Below the pieces are notes generated by a model that searched no databases, was not told where the DNA came from, and saw nothing but the letters and a program-made list of their open reading frames with translations. This document shows, piece by piece, positions 25,390-34,159 of a stretch of 64,000 nucleotides of DNA (positions within the stretch are counted from its first letter, which is position 1; every line of letters starts with the position of its first letter). The DNA lies in NCBI GenBank assembly GCA_021740785.1, contig JAIOZI010000014.1, positions 1 to 64,000 on the forward strand, read 5' to 3'. The DNA comes from Melioribacteraceae bacterium (GTDB lineage Bacteria; Bacteroidota; Ignavibacteria; Ignavibacteriales; Melioribacteraceae). Made by a program: the position numbers and the translations under genes.

Positions 25390-27564
25390 ATGCAATCAAA
25401 TTTAGATCAACCTGTTCAATATCTAAAATCGGTAGGACCTAAAAGAGCGGAGTCTTTTCGTAAAGTAGGCATCACAACGATTCGTGATTTATTATTTTAC
25501 TTCCCGACCCGCTACCTTGATAGGTCTACCATCTTAACATCTTCCAAAGTGATCCAATACTTAAGCAGCGATTATGCAGGTGAAGTTACGATTATTGGAA
25601 GCGTAATCGATAAAGAGAAAATTCGATATGGCAAAAGACAATTATTCAAAGTCAGGATGAGGGATTCACAAGGATTTTTTGAATGTGTCTGGTTTCAAGG
25701 AATTAAATATTTCACCAATTTATTTAATATTGGTGAGTACTTTGCTATTTCAGCCAAACCTGTAATCACTAAGTACGGGCATCTCCAATTTGTGCATCCG
25801 GATTTTGATAAACTAAACGATTCCGAATCCCAAGAATTTCTTAACACCGGTAAAATTATTCCTCATTACCCTCTTAGCAAGGAGTTGAGAGATGTAAAGC
25901 TGGGTGACCTTAGTTTAAGAAGAATAATCAGTTCAGCAGTGGAAATGTATGTATCCGAATTGGGGGAAACTTTACCGGAATGGTTTATTGAAAAGCATTC
26001 AATACCGGGTATTGTTTTTTCTATTAAAAATATTCACTTCCCCGAAAATTCCGAGCAGTTAAAAAATGCAATTACAAGATTCAAAATAGAAGAACTTTTC
26101 TACCTAGAAATATTAATCGCATTAAGAAAAAAGAGAATAAAAGCAAAAAATTTAGGAATCAAATTCAGCGTTGATCCAGGCCCGGTAAAAAAAATTCTTG
26201 CGGCGCTACCTTTTGATTTGACATCTGATCAATTGAAGGTTCTACATGAAATTCGTGTAGATATGGAATCCGAAGAAAGTATGAATAGATTGCTTCAAGG
26301 AGATGTGGGAAGCGGGAAAACTATTGTCGCTCTAATCGCAATGATTATTGCTGTTTCAAATGGTTTTCAAGCTGCACTTATGGTTCCGACAGAAATTCTT
26401 GCAGATCAGCACTTTAAAACTATATCCAAACTACTGAAGAATTTTGATTATAAAATTAACTTAGTTATTGGCGGGCAGAAAAAAAGCGACCGGGATAAAA
26501 ACTTAAAGGATATTTTAAGTCAAAGCAACCTAATCATAGGAACGCACGCTTTATTTGAGCAGACAGTTAATTTCAAAAATCTAGGCTTGGTTATAATTGA
26601 TGAACAGCATAGATTCGGTGTTGCACAAAGAGCCGGACTTATTATGAAAGGAAAAAGACCTGACGTTATTATCATGACCGCTACTCCAATACCGCGCACA
26701 ATGTCTTTAACGGTTTACGGTGACTTGGATGTATCAACAATTAAAGAAAAACCTCAAAACAGGAAATCAATCAAGACAAAAGTAGTAGCTGAAAAAAGTC
26801 TTCCGGAAGTTTTTAATTATATAGTTGAAAACAGTCGAAAAGGTTTTCAATCTTTCATTGTTTATCCGCTTGTTGAAGAATCTGAGAAACTGGAACTTAA
26901 AGCTGCGGAAACTTATTACGAAAAATTGAAATCAACTTTCTTGAAAAATATTAGTGTCGGATTGCTGCACGGTAAAATGAATTGGAAAGATAAAGAAAAA
27001 GTAATGATGGAGTTTGCCGAAGGAAAGTTTGATGTATTAATTTCAACAACAGTGATTGAAGTCGGCATTGATATACCAAATGCCAACATGATAGTAATAA
27101 ATGATGCTTTCAGGTTCGGGCTTTCACAACTCCATCAGTTGAGAGGAAGAGTCGGCAGAAATGATGTTCAATCTTACTGCATACTAGTTACTAAAAATGA
27201 ATATGCGGTCAAATCTGCTCAATACACATTTGACTTTTCTTATCTCTCAAAAAGCCAAATTGAAAAGAACAAATCCATTATCCGGTTGAATGCTATGGCT
27301 CAATATGATGATGGTTTTAAGCTATCCGAAATTGATCTAAAGCTTCGAGGTCCCGGAGACATATTCGGAATTAAGCAAAGCGGGTTCCCAGAATTAAAAT
27401 TTGCAGATATAGTTAATGATGTTGAGTTACTTATAAAAGCAAAGGAAGATGCTTTCGAATTGATAAAGATTGATCCGGATTTATCCAATCCTCAAAACTC
27501 GATTTTAAAAAACATTATTGAAGAAAAGTATAAAGAGAATCTTCATTTTATAAACATTGCATAA
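25390..27564 (+). CDS. recG: ATP-dependent DNA helicase RecG
   Basis: A 724-residue superfamily 2 helicase that reverses stalled replication forks and processes branched DNA. The N-terminal wedge/OB region (about 60-160) is followed by the helicase core with GDVGSGKT (Walker A), DEQHRFGVAQR (DExH box), MTATPIPRTMSLT and QLRGRVGRN. The C-terminal GPGDIFGIKQSGFPEL is typical. ATG 25390 is preferred to an in-frame TTG four codons upstream. It is the last gene before the promoter of the ATP-grasp/KamA operon. Confidence 0.96.
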   Translation: MQSNLDQPVQYLKSVGPKRAESFRKVGITTIRDLLFYFPTRYLDRSTILTSSKVIQYLSSDYAGEVTIIGSVIDKEKIRYGKRQLFKVRMRDSQGFFECVWFQGIKYFTNLFNIGEYFAISAKPVITKYGHLQFVHPDFDKLNDSESQEFLNTGKIIPHYPLSKELRDVKLGDLSLRRIISSAVEMYVSELGETLPEWFIEKHSIPGIVFSIKNIHFPENSEQLKNAITRFKIEELFYLEILIALRKKRIKAKNLGIKFSVDPGPVKKILAALPFDLTSDQLKVLHEIRVDMESEESMNRLLQGDVGSGKTIVALIAMIIAVSNGFQAALMVPTEILADQHFKTISKLLKNFDYKINLVIGGQKKSDRDKNLKDILSQSNLIIGTHALFEQTVNFKNLGLVIIDEQHRFGVAQRAGLIMKGKRPDVIIMTATPIPRTMSLTVYGDLDVSTIKEKPQNRKSIKTKVVAEKSLPEVFNYIVENSRKGFQSFIVYPLVEESEKLELKAAETYYEKLKSTFLKNISVGLLHGKMNWKDKEKVMMEFAEGKFDVLISTTVIEVGIDIPNANMIVINDAFRFGLSQLHQLRGRVGRNDVQSYCILVTKNEYAVKSAQYTFDFSYLSKSQIEKNKSIIRLNAMAQYDDGFKLSEIDLKLRGPGDIFGIKQSGFPELKFADIVNDVELLIKAKEDAFELIKIDPDLSNPQNSILKNIIEEKYKENLHFINIA

Positions 27565-27623
27565 ATTTTATTACCGACTAAAAAAAATCTATAACAGTAA
27601 CAACATTTTTTTTAAGTAACTTA

Positions 27624-27651
27624 TTGCATCTGAAATTTATTTCTTTATATT
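27624..27651 (+). promoter_or_regulatory. Candidate promoter of the ATP-grasp/KamA operon
   Basis: TTGCAT (27624-27629), a 16-base spacer and TATATT (27646-27651) lie about 35 bases before the first ATG. The segments ATTGCA (27623-27628) and TGCAAT (27651-27656) form an inverted repeat bracketing the promoter, a possible operator. This is an AT-rich gap, so chance matches are likely. Confidence 0.35.
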
Positions 27652-27685
27652 GCAATAAATTTTTTTTGATAGTTAAAAAGTTTTT

Positions 27686-28744
27686 ATGACTAAAAAACTA
27701 GATGTTGTTCTAACTTACAATGCCAAACCGGAAGAGTCCGCAGAAGAACTGTCCTCAAACATACCTCCCTCTGGAACGCCGGATTTAATTAATGATACTT
27801 ATGCCGAATGGGATACGTTGGAAACGGTATACGCTATTAGAGATGCGCTTCAAATAAAGCATGATGTAACAATGATCGAAGCGAACGAAGATGCATATGA
27901 TAAATTGCGTTCATCCAAACCGGATATAGTTTTCAATTACTCGGAAGGAATATTCGGGCAAAGCAGAGAAGCACAAATTCCTGCTATGTTAGACCTACTT
28001 CAAATACCTTATACAGGATCAAGCCCGCTAACATTAACTACATGTTTGGATAAAGCAAGGACCAAGGAAATTCTAAGTTACTATAACATTCCCAATCCAA
28101 AATTTGTTGTAGTAGAAAATGTTTCCGGTAACGGTTTAATGAATTTGAAGCTGCCCGTCATGATTAAACCTTTAGCGGAGGGATCAAGCAAAGGAATTTT
28201 TAATACATCTTTGATAAGTGAAAAAGAAGAGCTTGTAAATCAACTGACTAGCAACATAAGTTTTTATAATCAGCCGTTTATTGTAGAAGAATTTCTTCCC
28301 GGAAGGGAATTTACAGTTGCAATTTTAGGTAATGGTGATGAAGCAAAGGTACTGCCGATTGTTGAATTAAATCTTAATATACTTCCCGCTAATCTTAATC
28401 CAATTTATTCCTACGAAGCTAAGTGGATTGTAGACACACGAGATAATCCCTTAGACATCTTCACCTGTCCAGCAAATATTTCACCCGAGCTTGAATCTCA
28501 AATACAGAAAATTGCTCTGCAAACTTATAAGATTTTACGATGTAAAGATTGGTGTAGAATTGATATCCGTTTAGACGAAAATAATATTCCAAATATTATT
28601 GAAGTAAATCCTCTTCCGGGTGTACTGCCCGATCCGGATAATAATTCATGTTACCCTAAAGCCGCACGAGCAGCAGGATTGTCATTTGATGATATTATTT
28701 TAACTGTATTGGAAGCAGCAGCAAAGAGATACGGAATTAAATGA
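27686..28744 (+). CDS. D-Ala-D-Ala-ligase-like ATP-grasp enzyme (first of pair)
   Basis: A 352-residue ATP-grasp ligase. The N-terminal domain has PDIVFNYSEGIFGQSREAQI, then LDKARTKEIL. The ATP-binding part has MIKPLAEGSSKGI and VEEFLPGREFTVAIL, and the metal/active-site part WCRIDIRLDENNIPNIIEVN with PLPGVLPD. Arg, Asp, Glu and Asn positions needed for ATP/Mg2+ are kept. It is not the usual Ddl: the N-terminal EPLVHG-type block differs and no mur gene is nearby. It should join two amino-acid-like substrates through an acyl phosphate. Its stop overlaps the next ATG (ATGA). The substrate is unknown. Confidence 0.82.
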   Translation: MTKKLDVVLTYNAKPEESAEELSSNIPPSGTPDLINDTYAEWDTLETVYAIRDALQIKHDVTMIEANEDAYDKLRSSKPDIVFNYSEGIFGQSREAQIPAMLDLLQIPYTGSSPLTLTTCLDKARTKEILSYYNIPNPKFVVVENVSGNGLMNLKLPVMIKPLAEGSSKGIFNTSLISEKEELVNQLTSNISFYNQPFIVEEFLPGREFTVAILGNGDEAKVLPIVELNLNILPANLNPIYSYEAKWIVDTRDNPLDIFTCPANISPELESQIQKIALQTYKILRCKDWCRIDIRLDENNIPNIIEVNPLPGVLPDPDNNSCYPKAARAAGLSFDDIILTVLEAAAKRYGIK

Positions 28745-29796
28745 ACCAAGACAAAAAAATATTGGTCTGCTACAACGAACCAGTGAGCATATACGATAAC
28801 TATACAGGTAAAGCTCCCGGAGAATCAGCGCCTAAAATTGATTTATCTGAAAATGATTTCATGAATCATCTTGAAGGAATCATTCAATCTTTACGAAAGC
28901 AATTTAGTAATGTCGGCAGCCTTGCATTTAATGACCGGGTTTCATCGATTGTTAACAAAATTTACGAAGAAAACCCTGATGTAATTTTCAATTTCATTGA
29001 AGCGATAGAAGGCAATTCGAATTTTGAATTCTGTATTCCGGGTCTGTTCGATATACTCGGAATTCAATACACCGGGAATAATGCAACAACACTCGGCAAC
29101 TGTTTATTTAAAGAAAGAACGAAGCATATACTGAAGGCTCACGGAATAAACACATCCAGATTTCTAATTTTCGAATACAAGAAAAAACCAGAAGAAAAAA
29201 TGGATCTTAACTTCCCCGTAATCGTTAAACTGGCAAAGGAAGATGCAAGCATTGGTATATCAGAGTTATCCGTCGTGCATGACAAACAATCATTAAATCA
29301 GAGAATTAATTTTCTCTTTAAGAATTTTTCTCAAGATATTATTGTAGAAGAATATATCATCGGCAGAGAATTTAATGTATCTATTTTGGGAAATGAAATC
29401 CTCCCTATTTCGGAAATATCATACAGAGGATTACCGAAAGGTTACCCAAAAATTGTTACTTATGAAGCTAAGTGGGCACCGGACTCGGTTTATTATAATA
29501 ATACCAATCCAGTATGCCCCGCTGATATAAACGATACATTAAGGAGAAGAATTGAAAATGCTGCCATTGATTCTTACCATGCTCTTGAATGCAGGGATTA
29601 TGCACGAGTAGATATTAGATTGAAAAAGAACAGTATTCCGTATGTAATTGAAGTGAATCCTAATCCTGATTTATCAAGTGATGCAGGATTTGCCAATTCC
29701 GCTTCGGCAGCCGGAATTTCTTATGATGAACTTTTGGCAAGAATAGCAGGCTATGCAATAAATCGGCAAATAAATGATAAGAAAGCTGCAGGCTGA
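28741..29796 (+). CDS. D-Ala-D-Ala-ligase-like ATP-grasp enzyme (second of pair)
   Basis: A 351-residue paralogue of the preceding gene. It shares DVIFNFIEAIEGNSNFE, FKERTKHIL, PVIVKLAKEDASIGI, VEEYIIGREFNVSIL and YARVDIRLKKNSIPYVIEVN. Its substrate loop diverges: the Pro-Gly block seen in Ddl enzymes is replaced by NPNPDLSSDAGFANSA. The two ligases therefore probably use different substrates or act in sequence. It overlaps its neighbours on both sides (4 bases upstream, 23 downstream), so the operon structure is tight. Function is inferred only from fold and context. Confidence 0.8.
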   Translation: MNQDKKILVCYNEPVSIYDNYTGKAPGESAPKIDLSENDFMNHLEGIIQSLRKQFSNVGSLAFNDRVSSIVNKIYEENPDVIFNFIEAIEGNSNFEFCIPGLFDILGIQYTGNNATTLGNCLFKERTKHILKAHGINTSRFLIFEYKKKPEEKMDLNFPVIVKLAKEDASIGISELSVVHDKQSLNQRINFLFKNFSQDIIVEEYIIGREFNVSILGNEILPISEISYRGLPKGYPKIVTYEAKWAPDSVYYNNTNPVCPADINDTLRRRIENAAIDSYHALECRDYARVDIRLKKNSIPYVIEVNPNPDLSSDAGFANSASAAGISYDELLARIAGYAINRQINDKKAAG

Positions 29797-30247
29797 GGAC
29801 AGGACTCAGTTAATAAACATAATAAATGAGATAAAGATTTTTTCAACCGAAGAAAAAAATATTGCGGTTGAATTAATTGACGAAGCTTTACTGTATCAAG
29901 GTGAAGATAATTATAATATATTTGTAATAGTTGATAATGAAAAAATTGTTGGTTACCATTGCATTGGTAAAAGATCTTTAACTGATGGTGTTTATGATTT
30001 ATATTGGATTGTTGTTAAAGAATCTGAACAGGGAAAACAAATAGGGACAAAATTATTAAATCATGCTGAAGAGTTTGTTCGAATGAATAACGGTCGATGG
30101 TTATTAGCAGAAACCTCATCGATTGAAAGTTATGACAAAACAAGAAATTTCTATTTTAGAAATAATTACTCAGTAGTTGCCCAAATAAATGATTTTTATC
30201 AATTGGGAAATAATTTAATAGTATTCGGGAAGTATATAAAAATATAA
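29774..30247 (+). CDS. GNAT-family N-acetyltransferase
   Basis: A 157-residue GNAT-fold protein. Motif A, VVKESEQGKQIGTKLL (the QxxGxG/A-type acetyl-CoA loop), lies at about 80-95, and the terminal part has FYFRNNY as in many small-molecule acetyltransferases. At 157 residues it is shorter than AblB, the beta-lysine acetyltransferase of the N-acetyl-beta-lysine pathway, as I recall that family. It overlaps the second ATP-grasp gene by 23 bases and precedes the aminomutase by 11. It probably acetylates an amino group on the pathway product (inferred). Confidence 0.85.
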   Translation: MIRKLQAEDRTQLINIINEIKIFSTEEKNIAVELIDEALLYQGEDNYNIFVIVDNEKIVGYHCIGKRSLTDGVYDLYWIVVKESEQGKQIGTKLLNHAEEFVRMNNGRWLLAETSSIESYDKTRNFYFRNNYSVVAQINDFYQLGNNLIVFGKYIKI

Positions 30248-30258
30248 AGGGCTTTTCA

Positions 30259-31434
30259 ATGGAACATTGGCAGCAATTGATCAGGGATAGTGTACACACT
30301 GTTGATCAACTGGTTGAACGTTTTAATCTCGATAAAGAGGTTGCCGGTAAATTAGACGAGTATTTTCAAGCGAGGATCAATCCATATTATCTCAGCTTAA
30401 TTAGATATCCCGGTGATCCTATTTGGCTTCAGTGCGTACCCGACTCATTGGAATTGGATGACTTAGAAGGCTTAGAAGATCCTTTAAATGAGGATGAAAT
30501 GAGTCCGGTTCCAAACATAACACATAGATATCCTGACAGAGTTTTATTCTTAGTTACAAGTCAATGCGGGATGTACTGCAGATTTTGTACTAGGAAAAGA
30601 AAAGTGGGCGACTATGAAAAGATTTCAATGAAATCTTTGGAATCCGCTTTTAACTATATTGAAAAAAATAAAAAAATTCGTGATATAATCTTATCCGGCG
30701 GAGATCCATTGATGCTTACGGATTTTATGCTCGAAAAGATATTGAAGCGCTTAAGAGAAATAGAACATGTCGAAATTATCCGCCTCGGGACTAAGATGCC
30801 CTGTGTTCTTCCACAGCGAATAACTCCTGAACTTGTAAAAATGTTAAAAAAGTATCACCCGATTTATATCAATACTCACTTTAATCATCCATGGGAAATT
30901 ACGGAAGAAAGTACCAAAGCATGCGAGATGCTGATCAATGCAGGCTGCCCGGTAAATAACCAGGCTGTTTTAATGAAAGGCGTAAATGATAATGCTGAAG
31001 TAATGAGAGAACTTTTACTGAAGCTTCTCAAAATTAGAGTTAGACCTTATTACTTATTTATGGCTGATGAAACAAAGGGAACTGCTCATTTCAAAACATC
31101 AATTTCCAAAGGATTGGAAATAATGGATAAACTCAGAGGTCACATAAGCGGCATGGCAATTCCACATTTTATGATTGATGCTCCGGGCGGTGGCGGGAAA
31201 ATTCCTCTGCTGCCAAAGTATGTGCTGCATCATGATCCCGAGAAAATAATACTTCGAAATTATCAGCATGATGTTTACTTATATAACGATATGCCGGGGA
31301 AACCAGAAGAAGAACAAAAAAATAAAATTTTGGTTGAAATTTCTGATAAGAAAAATGGAAACTCTACTAAGCCAAAAAACTTCAAAGAAACTGAGAAAAT
31401 ATCCATTCCGGAATTTGAGGTGAAAGAGAATTAA
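30259..31434 (+). CDS. KamA-family radical SAM aminomutase (lysine 2,3-aminomutase-like)
   Basis: A 391-residue radical SAM, PLP-dependent enzyme closely resembling clostridial lysine 2,3-aminomutase. The [4Fe-4S] motif is CGMYCRFC (Cys103, 107, 110). Arg112 matches the carboxylate-binding Arg134. Asp270 and Asp307 match Asp293 and Asp330, which hold the lysine side-chain amine. Lys314 in PGGGGK matches PLP-binding Lys337; spacings 37 and 7 are identical. It would make a beta-amino acid, most simply beta-lysine. The C-terminal zinc cysteines of the clostridial enzyme are missing, replaced by a charged tail. EF-P-modifying EpmB is less likely. Confidence 0.88.
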   Translation: MEHWQQLIRDSVHTVDQLVERFNLDKEVAGKLDEYFQARINPYYLSLIRYPGDPIWLQCVPDSLELDDLEGLEDPLNEDEMSPVPNITHRYPDRVLFLVTSQCGMYCRFCTRKRKVGDYEKISMKSLESAFNYIEKNKKIRDIILSGGDPLMLTDFMLEKILKRLREIEHVEIIRLGTKMPCVLPQRITPELVKMLKKYHPIYINTHFNHPWEITEESTKACEMLINAGCPVNNQAVLMKGVNDNAEVMRELLLKLLKIRVRPYYLFMADETKGTAHFKTSISKGLEIMDKLRGHISGMAIPHFMIDAPGGGGKIPLLPKYVLHHDPEKIILRNYQHDVYLYNDMPGKPEEEQKNKILVEISDKKNGNSTKPKNFKETEKISIPEFEVKEN

Positions 31435-31952
31435 TTTCCTTTCACCTTTTTTAGAATTTCACATAGGTCTCTTTCAAGTGTTTCCATCGGGGTCTCAATT
31501 ATTCGTCCTAATTCATCTTCGTTTGAATAGATAATAAATGTTGGGACGAATTCAATTTGCAAGTCTTTAACTTCATCGGCTAAACCAACTTTATTTCTAT
31601 CGACATTGATGAGTGTAATCTTCTCAGAAGGATAATCCAGGTAATCTAAAATTTTATAAAACCTGGGTACTTCCCTTCTACTATCGCTGCACCAAGTTCC
31701 CATAACTATGGTAATTTGTGTGTCTTTTAATTTATCCCAGGAGCATTCTGTAATTGCAGAATCAACTTCATATAGATCCTGTTCAGAATTAAACCACCAG
31801 GCAAAAGAAGTATCCCGGAATGCATTTCTATCACAGTAGCTAATTAAAATCTTTTGCCCGGATCTTTCATCAATTATTGTTTGATTTAGTTCTTGAGCAA
31901 TGATAGAGCCGGAAATCGATAAAAAAAGTAATATATAAATTAACAGCTTCAT
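31431..31952 (-). CDS. Secreted thioredoxin-fold protein with CxxS site
   Basis: A 173-residue protein with a signal peptide (cleavage near IIAQ/EL) and a thioredoxin-like fold. The active-site segment reads GTWCSDSRREVPRF, so one cysteine (CSDS) replaces the usual CxxC, and VPTFIIY holds the cis-Pro. The Cys-only form suggests disulfide isomerase-like or non-redox binding work in the periplasm. Similar CxDS proteins are frequent in Bacteroidota, as I recall. It is last of a three-gene minus-strand operon after nadK. Its stop overlaps that of the KamA gene tail to tail. Confidence 0.82.
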   Translation of the reverse strand: MKLLIYILLFLSISGSIIAQELNQTIIDERSGQKILISYCDRNAFRDTSFAWWFNSEQDLYEVDSAITECSWDKLKDTQITIVMGTWCSDSRREVPRFYKILDYLDYPSEKITLINVDRNKVGLADEVKDLQIEFVPTFIIYSNEDELGRIIETPMETLERDLCEILKKVKGN

Positions 31953-32854
31953 TAATTACCTCCCTTTTCCTTTAGTGAATTATTACGAACATCCAAACCC
32001 CAAAATAATTTTTTACGAAGAATTTCGAAGTAATTTGTTTTCCGTGTGTGTATAAGTCGAATTGGCTTATCACTCTTGAAGATTTCTATTCTCATAGGAG
32101 GTTTGAAATAGTGAACTCTCTGTCCATCTGAATTTACTTGAACACTGCTGTGCGGTGAATTCACATCGATAATAATCCTTTGAATGGACGAAAGAACCAA
32201 AGGACGCATTGTTAATGTATGCGGTGAAATAGGACTTAAAGTAATAGCATCGGCTTTTGGGCTTACTATCGGTCCGCCAGTAGATAAAGAATAACCGGTT
32301 GATCCGGTAGGAGTTGCAATAATGATTCCATCAGCAGAAAATGTTGACACATAATCGTCATCAACTTTGATTGTCATTTCAATCATTTTAGGCCAGCCGC
32401 CCTTATCAATAACCAGATCATTAATACAGTACAAAGCCTTTCCAGGCGCTTCGGAACAAACGGCTCCGAGAGTCATTCTTTCTTCTATTATGAAATTTTT
32501 ATTTTTTATATCCATTACAAACTCTTCAATATGCCCGACTTCAAATTCAGCTAAAAATCCGAGCTTCCCGAAATTCAACCCGGCAAGTAATGGATTCCCA
32601 TTTCGTGCATCATAAGCAGTATTCAGCATGGTACCATCACCGCCAATGCTCACAACTATATCACTCATGTTGCAAATTTCCTCATCCCCTGCAAAATCGG
32701 AATTACTAATTATCTTATTAAAATCATCCTTTTTTTCAAGAAGATGACTGCTGAGCACATAATTGATTTTACTTTCCTGCAATTTTGAGATGAGCAAGGT
32801 GATAACCTCAATTACATTTTCCTTATTGATGTTTGGAATTATTCCGACTCTCAT
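31952..32854 (-). CDS. nadK: NAD kinase
   Basis: A 300-residue ATP-NAD kinase that makes NADP in the cytoplasm. The GGDGT signature (SIGGDGTMLNTAY) and the second motif TPTGSTGYSLSTGGPI are both intact. The length is slightly above the usual 270-295. It is between a core-type glycosyltransferase and a thioredoxin-like gene, adjoining the latter end to end, so it appears co-transcribed with both. Confidence 0.95.
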   Translation of the reverse strand: MRVGIIPNINKENVIEVITLLISKLQESKINYVLSSHLLEKKDDFNKIISNSDFAGDEEICNMSDIVVSIGGDGTMLNTAYDARNGNPLLAGLNFGKLGFLAEFEVGHIEEFVMDIKNKNFIIEERMTLGAVCSEAPGKALYCINDLVIDKGGWPKMIEMTIKVDDDYVSTFSADGIIIATPTGSTGYSLSTGGPIVSPKADAITLSPISPHTLTMRPLVLSSIQRIIIDVNSPHSSVQVNSDGQRVHYFKPPMRIEIFKSDKPIRLIHTRKTNYFEILRKKLFWGLDVRNNSLKEKGGN

Positions 32855-33805: not shown

Positions 33806-34159
33806 ATGAAAAAAATATTGATGACCCTATTGTTTTTAGCAGCCCTTGGTGTTGCAGCAAATGCTCAACAGATACTAAGCGGCAGCTATAAAGCTGACTA
33901 TAACAGTGCAGGTTATTCGCTGCATCAAAACAGCGGAGCTAGAACCTTTACTATTGATGTTGTCTTCGAAAAGAAATTTGATTCAAGACCTGAAATTGTA
34001 TTGACAGTTAATGAACTTGATGCTGAAGCACAAAATAACGTTAGATACAGAGTTGAAGCAAAAGCTGTCAGCAGCGAAGGTTTCCTCTTAACTATTACCA
34101 CATGGGGTGATAGCAAAGTTTACGGAGTTGGCGGAAACTGGTTAGCTCATAGCAAATAA
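33806..34159 (+). CDS. Secreted single-domain H-type lectin
   Basis: A 117-residue protein with a signal peptide (residues 1-20, ending AANA-QQ). The mature part of about 97 residues fits an H-type lectin domain, the sugar-binding fold of snail agglutinin and the discoidin C-terminus. The pattern is visible: IDVVFEKKFDSRPEIVLTV, NNVRYRVEAKAV, EGFLLTITTWGDSKVYGVG and a final NWLAHSK. It has GGAG before the ATG, its own terminator and the polysaccharide cluster just downstream. It may bind the cell's own or a foreign surface glycan (inferred). Such domains act as hexamers; oligomerisation cannot be judged here. Confidence 0.8.
   Translation: MKKILMTLLFLAALGVAANAQQILSGSYKADYNSAGYSLHQNSGARTFTIDVVFEKKFDSRPEIVLTVNELDAEAQNNVRYRVEAKAVSSEGFLLTITTWGDSKVYGVGGNWLAHSK

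Follow-up and report, generated by a model that had tools for sequence, protein, structure and literature searches.

The window analysed here is a stretch of 64,000 nucleotides from a Melioribacteraceae bacterium (GenBank assembly GCA_021740785.1, contig JAIOZI010000014.1, positions 1 to 64,000), which is contig C39 of the 4.85-Mb assembly. Four genes, ligA, ligB, a GNAT acetyltransferase gene and kamA, lie head to tail on its + strand as read from the open reading frames (ORFs), and are referred to below as the quartet (Table 1). The two ligase genes overlap by 4 bases, ligB and the GNAT gene overlap by 23 bases, and a gap of 11 bases separates the GNAT gene from kamA. The first-pass annotation of this DNA had described two Ddl-like ligases, a small GNAT and a radical SAM aminomutase, overlapping or 11 bases apart, and both the ORFs and the Pfam domains agree with it. 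By the same ORFs and domains, the four-gene unit includes no gene for an exporter, a regulator, a peptidase or a nonribosomal peptide synthetase (NRPS).

Table 1. Coordinates and domain matches of the four genes in the window (PLP, pyridoxal phosphate).
Gene	Product	Length (amino acids)	Position	Strand	Domain match
ligA	Ddl-like ATP-grasp amino-acid ligase	352	27686..28744	+	PF07478, 1.4e-35
ligB	Second Ddl-like ATP-grasp ligase	351	28741..29796	+	PF07478, 1.4e-33
GNAT	GNAT acetyltransferase	157	29774..30247	+	Acetyltransf_7, 3e-11
kamA	Lysine-2,3-aminomutase-type radical SAM/PLP enzyme (KamA)	391	30259..31434	+	LAM_C + Radical_SAM

Gene order was read in two sets of genomes: named genomes, scanned with the ligA alignment and taken as the best 80 of 569 relatives, and a sample of 296 genomes of the phylum. 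The loci of the two sets share organisms and are not independent. Among the best 80 named-genome loci, 72 carry the complete order ligA-ligB-GNAT-kamA, 69 by ORFs and three (L112, L114 and L136) by tblastn; genes in these three and in L120 had been overlooked by the ORF filter and were rechecked, and the GNAT gene of L112 is a partial tblastn match only. A contig end interrupts the quartet in seven of the 80 loci, and ligA stands alone in one (L120). In the phylum sample, the top matches to ligB fall at 30 loci, one of which is the window; all four genes are present at 28 of the 29 others, and at the 29th (L031) a contig end falls inside ligB. Relatives with the same order carry the record labels Melioribacter, Stygiobacter, Ignavibacteriales and Candidatus Kryptonia. 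The flanking genes vary by family: several have recG, L057 has a secreted peptidase as well as a release factor, L056 has a peptidase, and unknown proteins occur elsewhere; at L058 a response regulator adjoins the quartet on the other strand. A scan of ten flanking proteins revealed no murein enzyme, and they share no exporter, regulator or peptidase. Because the flanking genes differ and the four genes stay joined, the quartet stands as a unit of its own. The check proposed in the first-pass annotation, conservation of the gene order, thus comes out in its favor (72 of 80 and 28 of 29 loci complete), and the four-gene set is a genuine conserved unit whose order persists more than chance would allow.

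The genes also occur together where they are not adjacent. In the phylum sample, the GNAT profile matches 56 of the 296 genomes at E 1e-12 or better, strongly in 52 (E 2.2e-44 or better) and weakly in four (G088, G254, G279 and G231). Every one of the 52 strong-GNAT genomes also carries KamA at E 2.4e-100 or better and no fewer than two ligase places that reach E 4.5e-36. Forty-three of them belong to the window's class and have the genes adjacent, complete in 41 and interrupted by contig ends in G196 and G247. The other nine (G079, G087, G125, G133, G137, G237, G272, G280 and G287) belong to three families and six genera in other classes, and here the four kinds of gene lie on separate contigs or tens of kilobases apart. 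Two or more ligase places (E up to 4.5e-36) are found in 53 genomes, 52 of which have the strong GNAT; the sole ligase-bearing genome without it is G047, where the contig ends inside ligB. The remaining 243 genomes have neither the ligase pair nor the GNAT at these limits, and four of them hold the weaker GNAT matches. The association of the ligase pair with the GNAT has a Fisher's exact p of 1.6e-57, uncorrected for kinship. KamA at E 1e-100 or better occurs without the GNAT in 15 genomes, and the GNAT therefore tracks the ligases and not KamA generally. Homologues that do not stay together had been named beforehand as grounds for giving up the proposed system; such dispersal is largely not what we find, and even scattered genes still co-occur genome by genome. 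With G047 counted as lacking it, the quartet is present in 13/16 sampled genomes of the family, 22/27 of the order and 43/73 of the class.

KamA aligns with the Clostridium lysine 2,3-aminomutase of structure 2a5h at E 3.8e-121 and has the radical SAM cysteines C103, C107 and C110 (CxxxCxxC). Residues R134, D293, D330 and K337 of 2a5h, which bind substrate and PLP, correspond in the alignment to KamA R112, D270, D307 and K314. Our residue survey was given 123 loci, partly redundant, and KamA was read in 114 of these. All 114 have the cysteines and R112, and conservation is equally complete for D270 (110/110 read) and for both D307 and K314 (108/108 read); the two lysine-site aspartates are also kept in the scattered-gene genomes G079 and G087. 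The best NCBIfam model for KamA is AblA-type lysine 2,3-aminomutase (1.3e-136). KamA scores 455.7 bits against the AblA equivalog TIGR03820 (cut-off 525.4), 438.7 bits against the glutamate 2,3-aminomutase TIGR04368 (cut-off 650) and 357.4 bits against the arginine 2,3-aminomutase TIGR04468 (cut-off 600). Since the residues of the lysine enzyme are kept wherever they were read, lysine is the likeliest predicted substrate. The first-pass annotation had the aminomutase supply a beta-amino acid, most simply beta-lysine, and the presence of the lysine-binding residues of the solved enzyme is consistent with that assignment.

Both ligases belong to the Ddl-type ATP-grasp superfamily, with PF07478 and the catalytic K, R, D, E and N, and in a sequence search the nearest solved structures of both are Ddl (D-alanine-D-alanine ligase). 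Against the Ddl model TIGR01205 (cut-off 245.65), LigA scores 163 bits and LigB 143.1 bits, both under the cut-off, and the genome's true Ddl, encoded on the separate contig C25, scores 313.3 bits, above it. That the two might prove to be plain D-Ala-D-Ala ligases had also been held out as a possible refutation; these scores and the separate Ddl argue to the contrary. In a tree of the ligases (one ligA row, L168, contains a stop and was masked as X), ligA forms its own clade with support 0.80, and ligB, a third paralogue named ligC and the scattered ligB-like genes form one clade with support 0.98. Genes of G079 and G087 fall in the ligA clade and genes of G079, G087 and G280 in the ligB/ligC clade, and the G079 pair shows the residue signatures of ligA and ligB.

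The active sites of LigA and LigB were compared with Ddl rows from Photobacterium and G066; the Photobacterium match, H11, proved to be an ordinary Ddl. In LigA, S167, K246, R291, D293, E306, N308, G312 and S321, equivalent to DdlB S150, K215, R255, D257, E270, N272, G276 and S281, are invariant in the 121 loci read of the 123. K169 is also invariant, and an inserted stretch precedes S321. An equivalence of LigA E41 with Ddl E15 was not borne out by the alignment. The catalytic K, R, D, E and N are present in LigB as well; A169 replaces DdlB S150 in 120/121 read, and D310 stands at the place of DdlB G276 in 116/116 read. D314, which is D in 104/116 and E in 4/116, adjoins the place of DdlB S281, itself held by A315. 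In Ddl structures, the region of these altered LigB positions is the one that binds the acceptor carboxylate. As residues of this Ddl acceptor region are replaced by conserved acids, LigB would accept a partner different from that of Ddl, perhaps a cationic one such as a diamino acid. LigA, by the same alignment, appears to retain the acceptor-carboxylate residues of the Ddl, or amino-acid, type. The predicted LigA structure (mean predicted local distance difference test, pLDDT, 76.6, with low-confidence stretches) was not used.

The GNAT belongs to its superfamily by profile and by fold. Its AlphaFold2 model (pLDDT 93.9) is closest to the solved structure 2r7h, Dde_3044 of Desulfovibrio, with Z 25.0 and a root-mean-square deviation of 1.2 A over 156 residues; the two share 33% identity (sequence E 1.6e-42), and the next structure has Z 19.7. 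As this match shows, the GNAT has close relatives outside the phylum. The Protein Data Bank name of 2r7h is putative D-alanine N-acetyltransferase, a name only, and we found no functional description of it in openly licensed papers; this closest solved GNAT is therefore a point of comparison that differs in carrying just a putative name. The AblB model TIGR03827 (266 positions) is not among the NCBIfam matches of the GNAT at E 1e-3.

Our preferred interpretation, to which we give a probability of roughly 55%, is that the operon encodes a cytoplasmic pathway to a small N-acetylated peptide containing beta-lysine. Using radical SAM/PLP chemistry, KamA would convert L-lysine to 3,6-diaminohexanoate (beta-lysine), a step well supported by sequence. 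LigA and LigB, as amide-forming ligases of Ddl descent, would couple amino acids after forming an acyl phosphate from a carboxylate; the two ligations may be successive or alternative, with beta-lysine as one partner joined to one or two amino acids. The GNAT would then acetylate a free amine and so remove a positive charge. Since the unit contains no export, NRPS or regulatory gene, the cell most likely keeps the product. This gene content, together with the occurrence of the quartet in a majority of the order's sampled genomes, favors an intracellular solute, and we tentatively suggest that the product serves as a compatible solute, a role we propose with less confidence than the pathway itself. 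More speculatively still, an N-acetylated beta-lysine di- or tripeptide might represent a new class of compatible solute that gives many Ignavibacteria-like bacteria standing protection against osmotic stress or heat. It is just as conjectural that such a solute would be a hybrid of the strategies of N-acetyl-beta-lysine and N-acetylglutaminylglutamine amide (NAGGN), forming a branch of an aminomutase-plus-ligase peptide family.

Precedents exist for the separate parts of this proposal. The ablA and ablB genes make N-epsilon-acetyl-beta-lysine (PMC1224877), and in the synthesis of the osmolyte NAGGN, Ngg carries out the N-acetylation of glutamine as well as peptide-bond formation (PMC8070244). 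Beta-lysine is tied to salt in two further sources: Na+ riboswitches control ablA in some bacteria (PMC9337991), and ablA was suggested as an osmolyte route in Pelobacter (PMC3543383). The abl operon (PMC1224877) shares with the quartet a lysine 2,3-aminomutase and an acetyltransferase in one operon and a predicted beta-lysine intermediate. The quartet differs in its two added Ddl-like ligases, in a GNAT of just 157 amino acids and in a KamA under the AblA cut-off. The first-pass annotation had drawn the same distinction from the ligases and the shorter GNAT, and the lack of an AblB match to the GNAT at E 1e-3 bears it out. AblB (TIGR03827) has no match at E 1e-3 in the window's genome either, in a search whose controls match in 5/14 genomes, three over the cut-off. 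The asnO/ngg system (PMC8070244) likewise yields a small N-acetylated peptide without ribosome or NRPS through acetyltransferase and ligase activities, whereas the quartet has no fused GNAT-ligase and has an aminomutase gene in place of an amidotransferase. The GNAT/ligase fusion model TIGR03103 finds in the window's genome only the third paralogue, at 30.5 bits (cut-off 569, with no control over it). The Ddl/Van ligases share the ATP-grasp domain and catalytic residues with LigA and LigB, which differ in scoring under the Ddl cut-offs, in the changed acceptor region of LigB and in the existence of a separate Ddl in the genome. The N-terminal motif of Ddl, GGxSxEREVS, was not seen in the quartet ligases. 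We found no description of the four-gene set in openly licensed papers; an earlier prediction may exist in a 2009 survey of ATP-grasp amidoligases.

ATP-grasp ligases that build cross-bridges exist, among them the enterococcal D-aspartate ligase, and the strongest alternative to a free acetylated peptide is a modification of the envelope or another macromolecule, in which the ligases attach beta-lysine or an acetylated beta-lysyl peptide to a peptidoglycan precursor or a large acceptor. By sequence both ligases are Ddl-family proteins, the acceptor-carboxylate pattern of Ddl is missing from LigB, and a glycosyltransferase gene and a polysaccharide-flippase-like gene lie downstream in the window. 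Additionally, a glutamate-racemase homologue stands next to the GNAT gene or one gene off in 4/5 scattered-gene genomes read, and NCBIfam gives the glutamate-racemase name in two of those four. However, this Asp/Glu racemase is probably the ordinary MurI; the flanks vary between relatives, with the ten scanned proteins free of murein enzymes, and LigA keeps an acceptor site of the amino-acid type. We regard envelope modification as unlikely.

Less probable again is a secreted or defensive small molecule, such as a beta-lysine di- or tripeptide antibiotic or a siderophore-like compound, with the GNAT providing self-protection. Beta-lysine is found in streptothricin and the tuberactinomycins, a Thioflavicoccus plasmid (described below) combines sbnA-type diaminopropionate genes with KamA and a related ligase, and the quartet is absent from 30/73 sampled genomes of the class. 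A secreted product sits poorly with a unit that holds no exporter, regulator or peptidase and shares none among its scanned flanks, with the presence of the quartet in 22/27 sampled genomes of the order, and with a scan of defence models whose one match, to viperin, is weak and falls in the radical SAM domain.

The quartet might instead make plain N-acetyl-beta-lysine, KamA and the GNAT replacing AblA and AblB and the ligases serving another product, which we consider improbable. KamA is of the lysine type, and AblB, not found in the window's genome, is above its cut-off in 7/119 genomes of the class, all seven in family f51. Green sulfur bacteria, a related group, are reported to accumulate N-epsilon-acetyl-beta-lysine, according to the title of a paper cited in PMC9337991 and PMC12776343. 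This explanation leaves aside that in every complete locus the GNAT gene is preceded by the two ligase genes, and that ligases accompany the GNAT even when the genes are scattered. In G296, also of family f51, we observed an abl operon with a transporter, in which KamA, an SSF symporter and AblB lie side by side (L147:4572-8308).

Two further uses of beta-lysine are very improbable. One is beta-lysylation of elongation factor P (EF-P) or another protein: EpmB is related to KamA (PMC2821294), but KamA reaches 238 bits against the EpmB model TIGR03821, whose cut-off is 369.3. EpmA (TIGR00462) is not found above its cut-off in the window's genome, where the best match has 243.4 bits against 286.9 and lies in a 506-amino-acid frame that looks like LysS; 14 controls match this model, two of them over the cut-off. 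The other is lysine catabolism, a fermentation through beta-lysine to which the remaining genes are incidental. Lysine 2,3-aminomutase is described as a lysine-catabolic enzyme (PMC2821294), yet the four-gene set is constant. The lysine 5,6-aminomutase model PF09043 matched neither the window's genome nor any of the controls. Finally, that the ligases are ordinary D-Ala-D-Ala ligases lying beside the other genes by chance is hardly credible, and a housekeeping Ddl identity was rejected for both LigA and LigB: Ddl supplies both their Pfam domain and the solved structures closest to them, but their scores fall far under the cut-off, the true Ddl is on another contig, their departures from the Ddl active site are conserved and they occupy separate clades in the tree.

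Several observations weigh against an acetylated beta-lysine peptide or against its role as a solute. The quartet is not universal in the order or class and is thus dispensable within its group. Many named carriers come from groundwater, by their record titles, or from hot springs; a role in salt alone is made less likely by the groundwater lineages and by absence from 30 of the 73 class genomes. The quartet has no osmotic gene next to it, and a search for RNA elements in window positions 26500-32000 revealed no upstream switch of the Na+ riboswitch kind; its single match, at the end of ligB, scores 23.1 bits, below the gathering score of 39. A clean assignment of KamA is complicated by its scores below the cut-off of every named aminomutase model, with related models named for glutamate, arginine and EF-P modification. 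The active-site argument comes from alignment and from the residue roles of Ddl and of the aminomutase, and ligase substrates cannot be read from sequence. Lastly, ligA can serve elsewhere: in a Wallbacteria-labelled bin (L120:6887-8092) it occurs at 55% without the other three genes within 7 kb, and a search of that genome, made without a positive control, gave no GNAT match.

Pairs of an aminomutase and a Ddl-like ligase are found more widely. Taking the ligase of locus L145 as query, we searched 29 genomes chosen from the phylum sample that carry KamA and are not among the quartet genomes. A ligase of this type is present in 26 of the 29, within 1 kb of KamA in 18 and apart from it in eight, and has no match in the other three searched (G096, G238 and G245). 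L145 and L146 hold two-gene units of another KamA with a Ddl-like ligase (L145:6815-8907 and L146:6882-9128). In the KamA of both, Q replaces the equivalent of D293, and the L145 enzyme, the sole one scanned, is nearest to the arginine model, under its cut-off. These and the other wider-phylum pairs resemble the quartet in placing an aminomutase near a Ddl-like ligase and differ in having one ligase, of another clade, and in most cases no such GNAT. On a Thioflavicoccus plasmid (NC_019941, L144:4557-10038), a 2,4-diaminobutyrate (DABA) aminotransferase gene, sbnA, an ornithine-cyclodeaminase-type gene and a Ddl-like ligase gene stand in a row, possibly a cluster for a diamino-acid peptide, and kamA adjoins that row on the other strand. 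This grouping of a Ddl-like ligase and KamA with diaminobutyrate/diaminopropionate-type genes also speaks for our preferred interpretation. No KamA is among the listed neighbours of the plasmid Ddl-like relatives in Rhizobium and NGR234, and the KamA-ligase association is therefore recurring, not general. Since such neighbourhoods recur in the phylum and on the Thioflavicoccus plasmid, the four-gene unit is an elaborated form of a wider association of aminomutase and Ddl-like ligase. For the beta-lysine pathway put forward in the first-pass annotation, support is partial: the conserved unit, the lysine-type KamA and the non-housekeeping ligases all speak in favor, with the qualification that the pairing belongs to this wider theme.

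Other ligases of this kind were noted in passing. The third paralogue, ligC (39% to ligB), lies on contig C30 of the window's genome (L039:7593-8639, - strand), divergent from the gene of a 276-amino-acid protein weakly like C39 peptidases and BtrH (L039:8742-9569, + strand). This pair is kept in L047, L048 and L050 at 52-69% identity, and the L050 genome lacks the quartet. Proteins of 640-656 amino acids with a Ddl-like ligase are encoded at L040:6996-8936, L041:6815-8782 and L042:7089-9008; those of L040 and L042 have an N-terminal methyltransferase domain by Pfam, and that of L041 is alike in length.

Around the quartet in the window, the upstream neighbour is recG. Downstream, on the opposite strand, are genes for a thioredoxin-like protein, an NAD kinase and a family 2 glycosyltransferase, the last 1.4 kb from the quartet. 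Farther downstream on the + strand lies a 117-amino-acid protein with an H-type lectin domain (PF09458, 4.9e-20; window positions 33806-34159), followed by the polysaccharide-flippase-like protein, whose gene is 2.8 kb from the quartet.

If the operon does make an acetylated beta-lysine peptide, a large group of environmental bacteria would produce a beta-amino-acid peptide by a compact, NRPS-free route. It would also provide two new ligase specificities, of use in biocatalysis. Genes that resemble those of D-Ala-D-Ala ligases would thereby gain a function, and the wider aminomutase-plus-ligase theme would be opened to tests.

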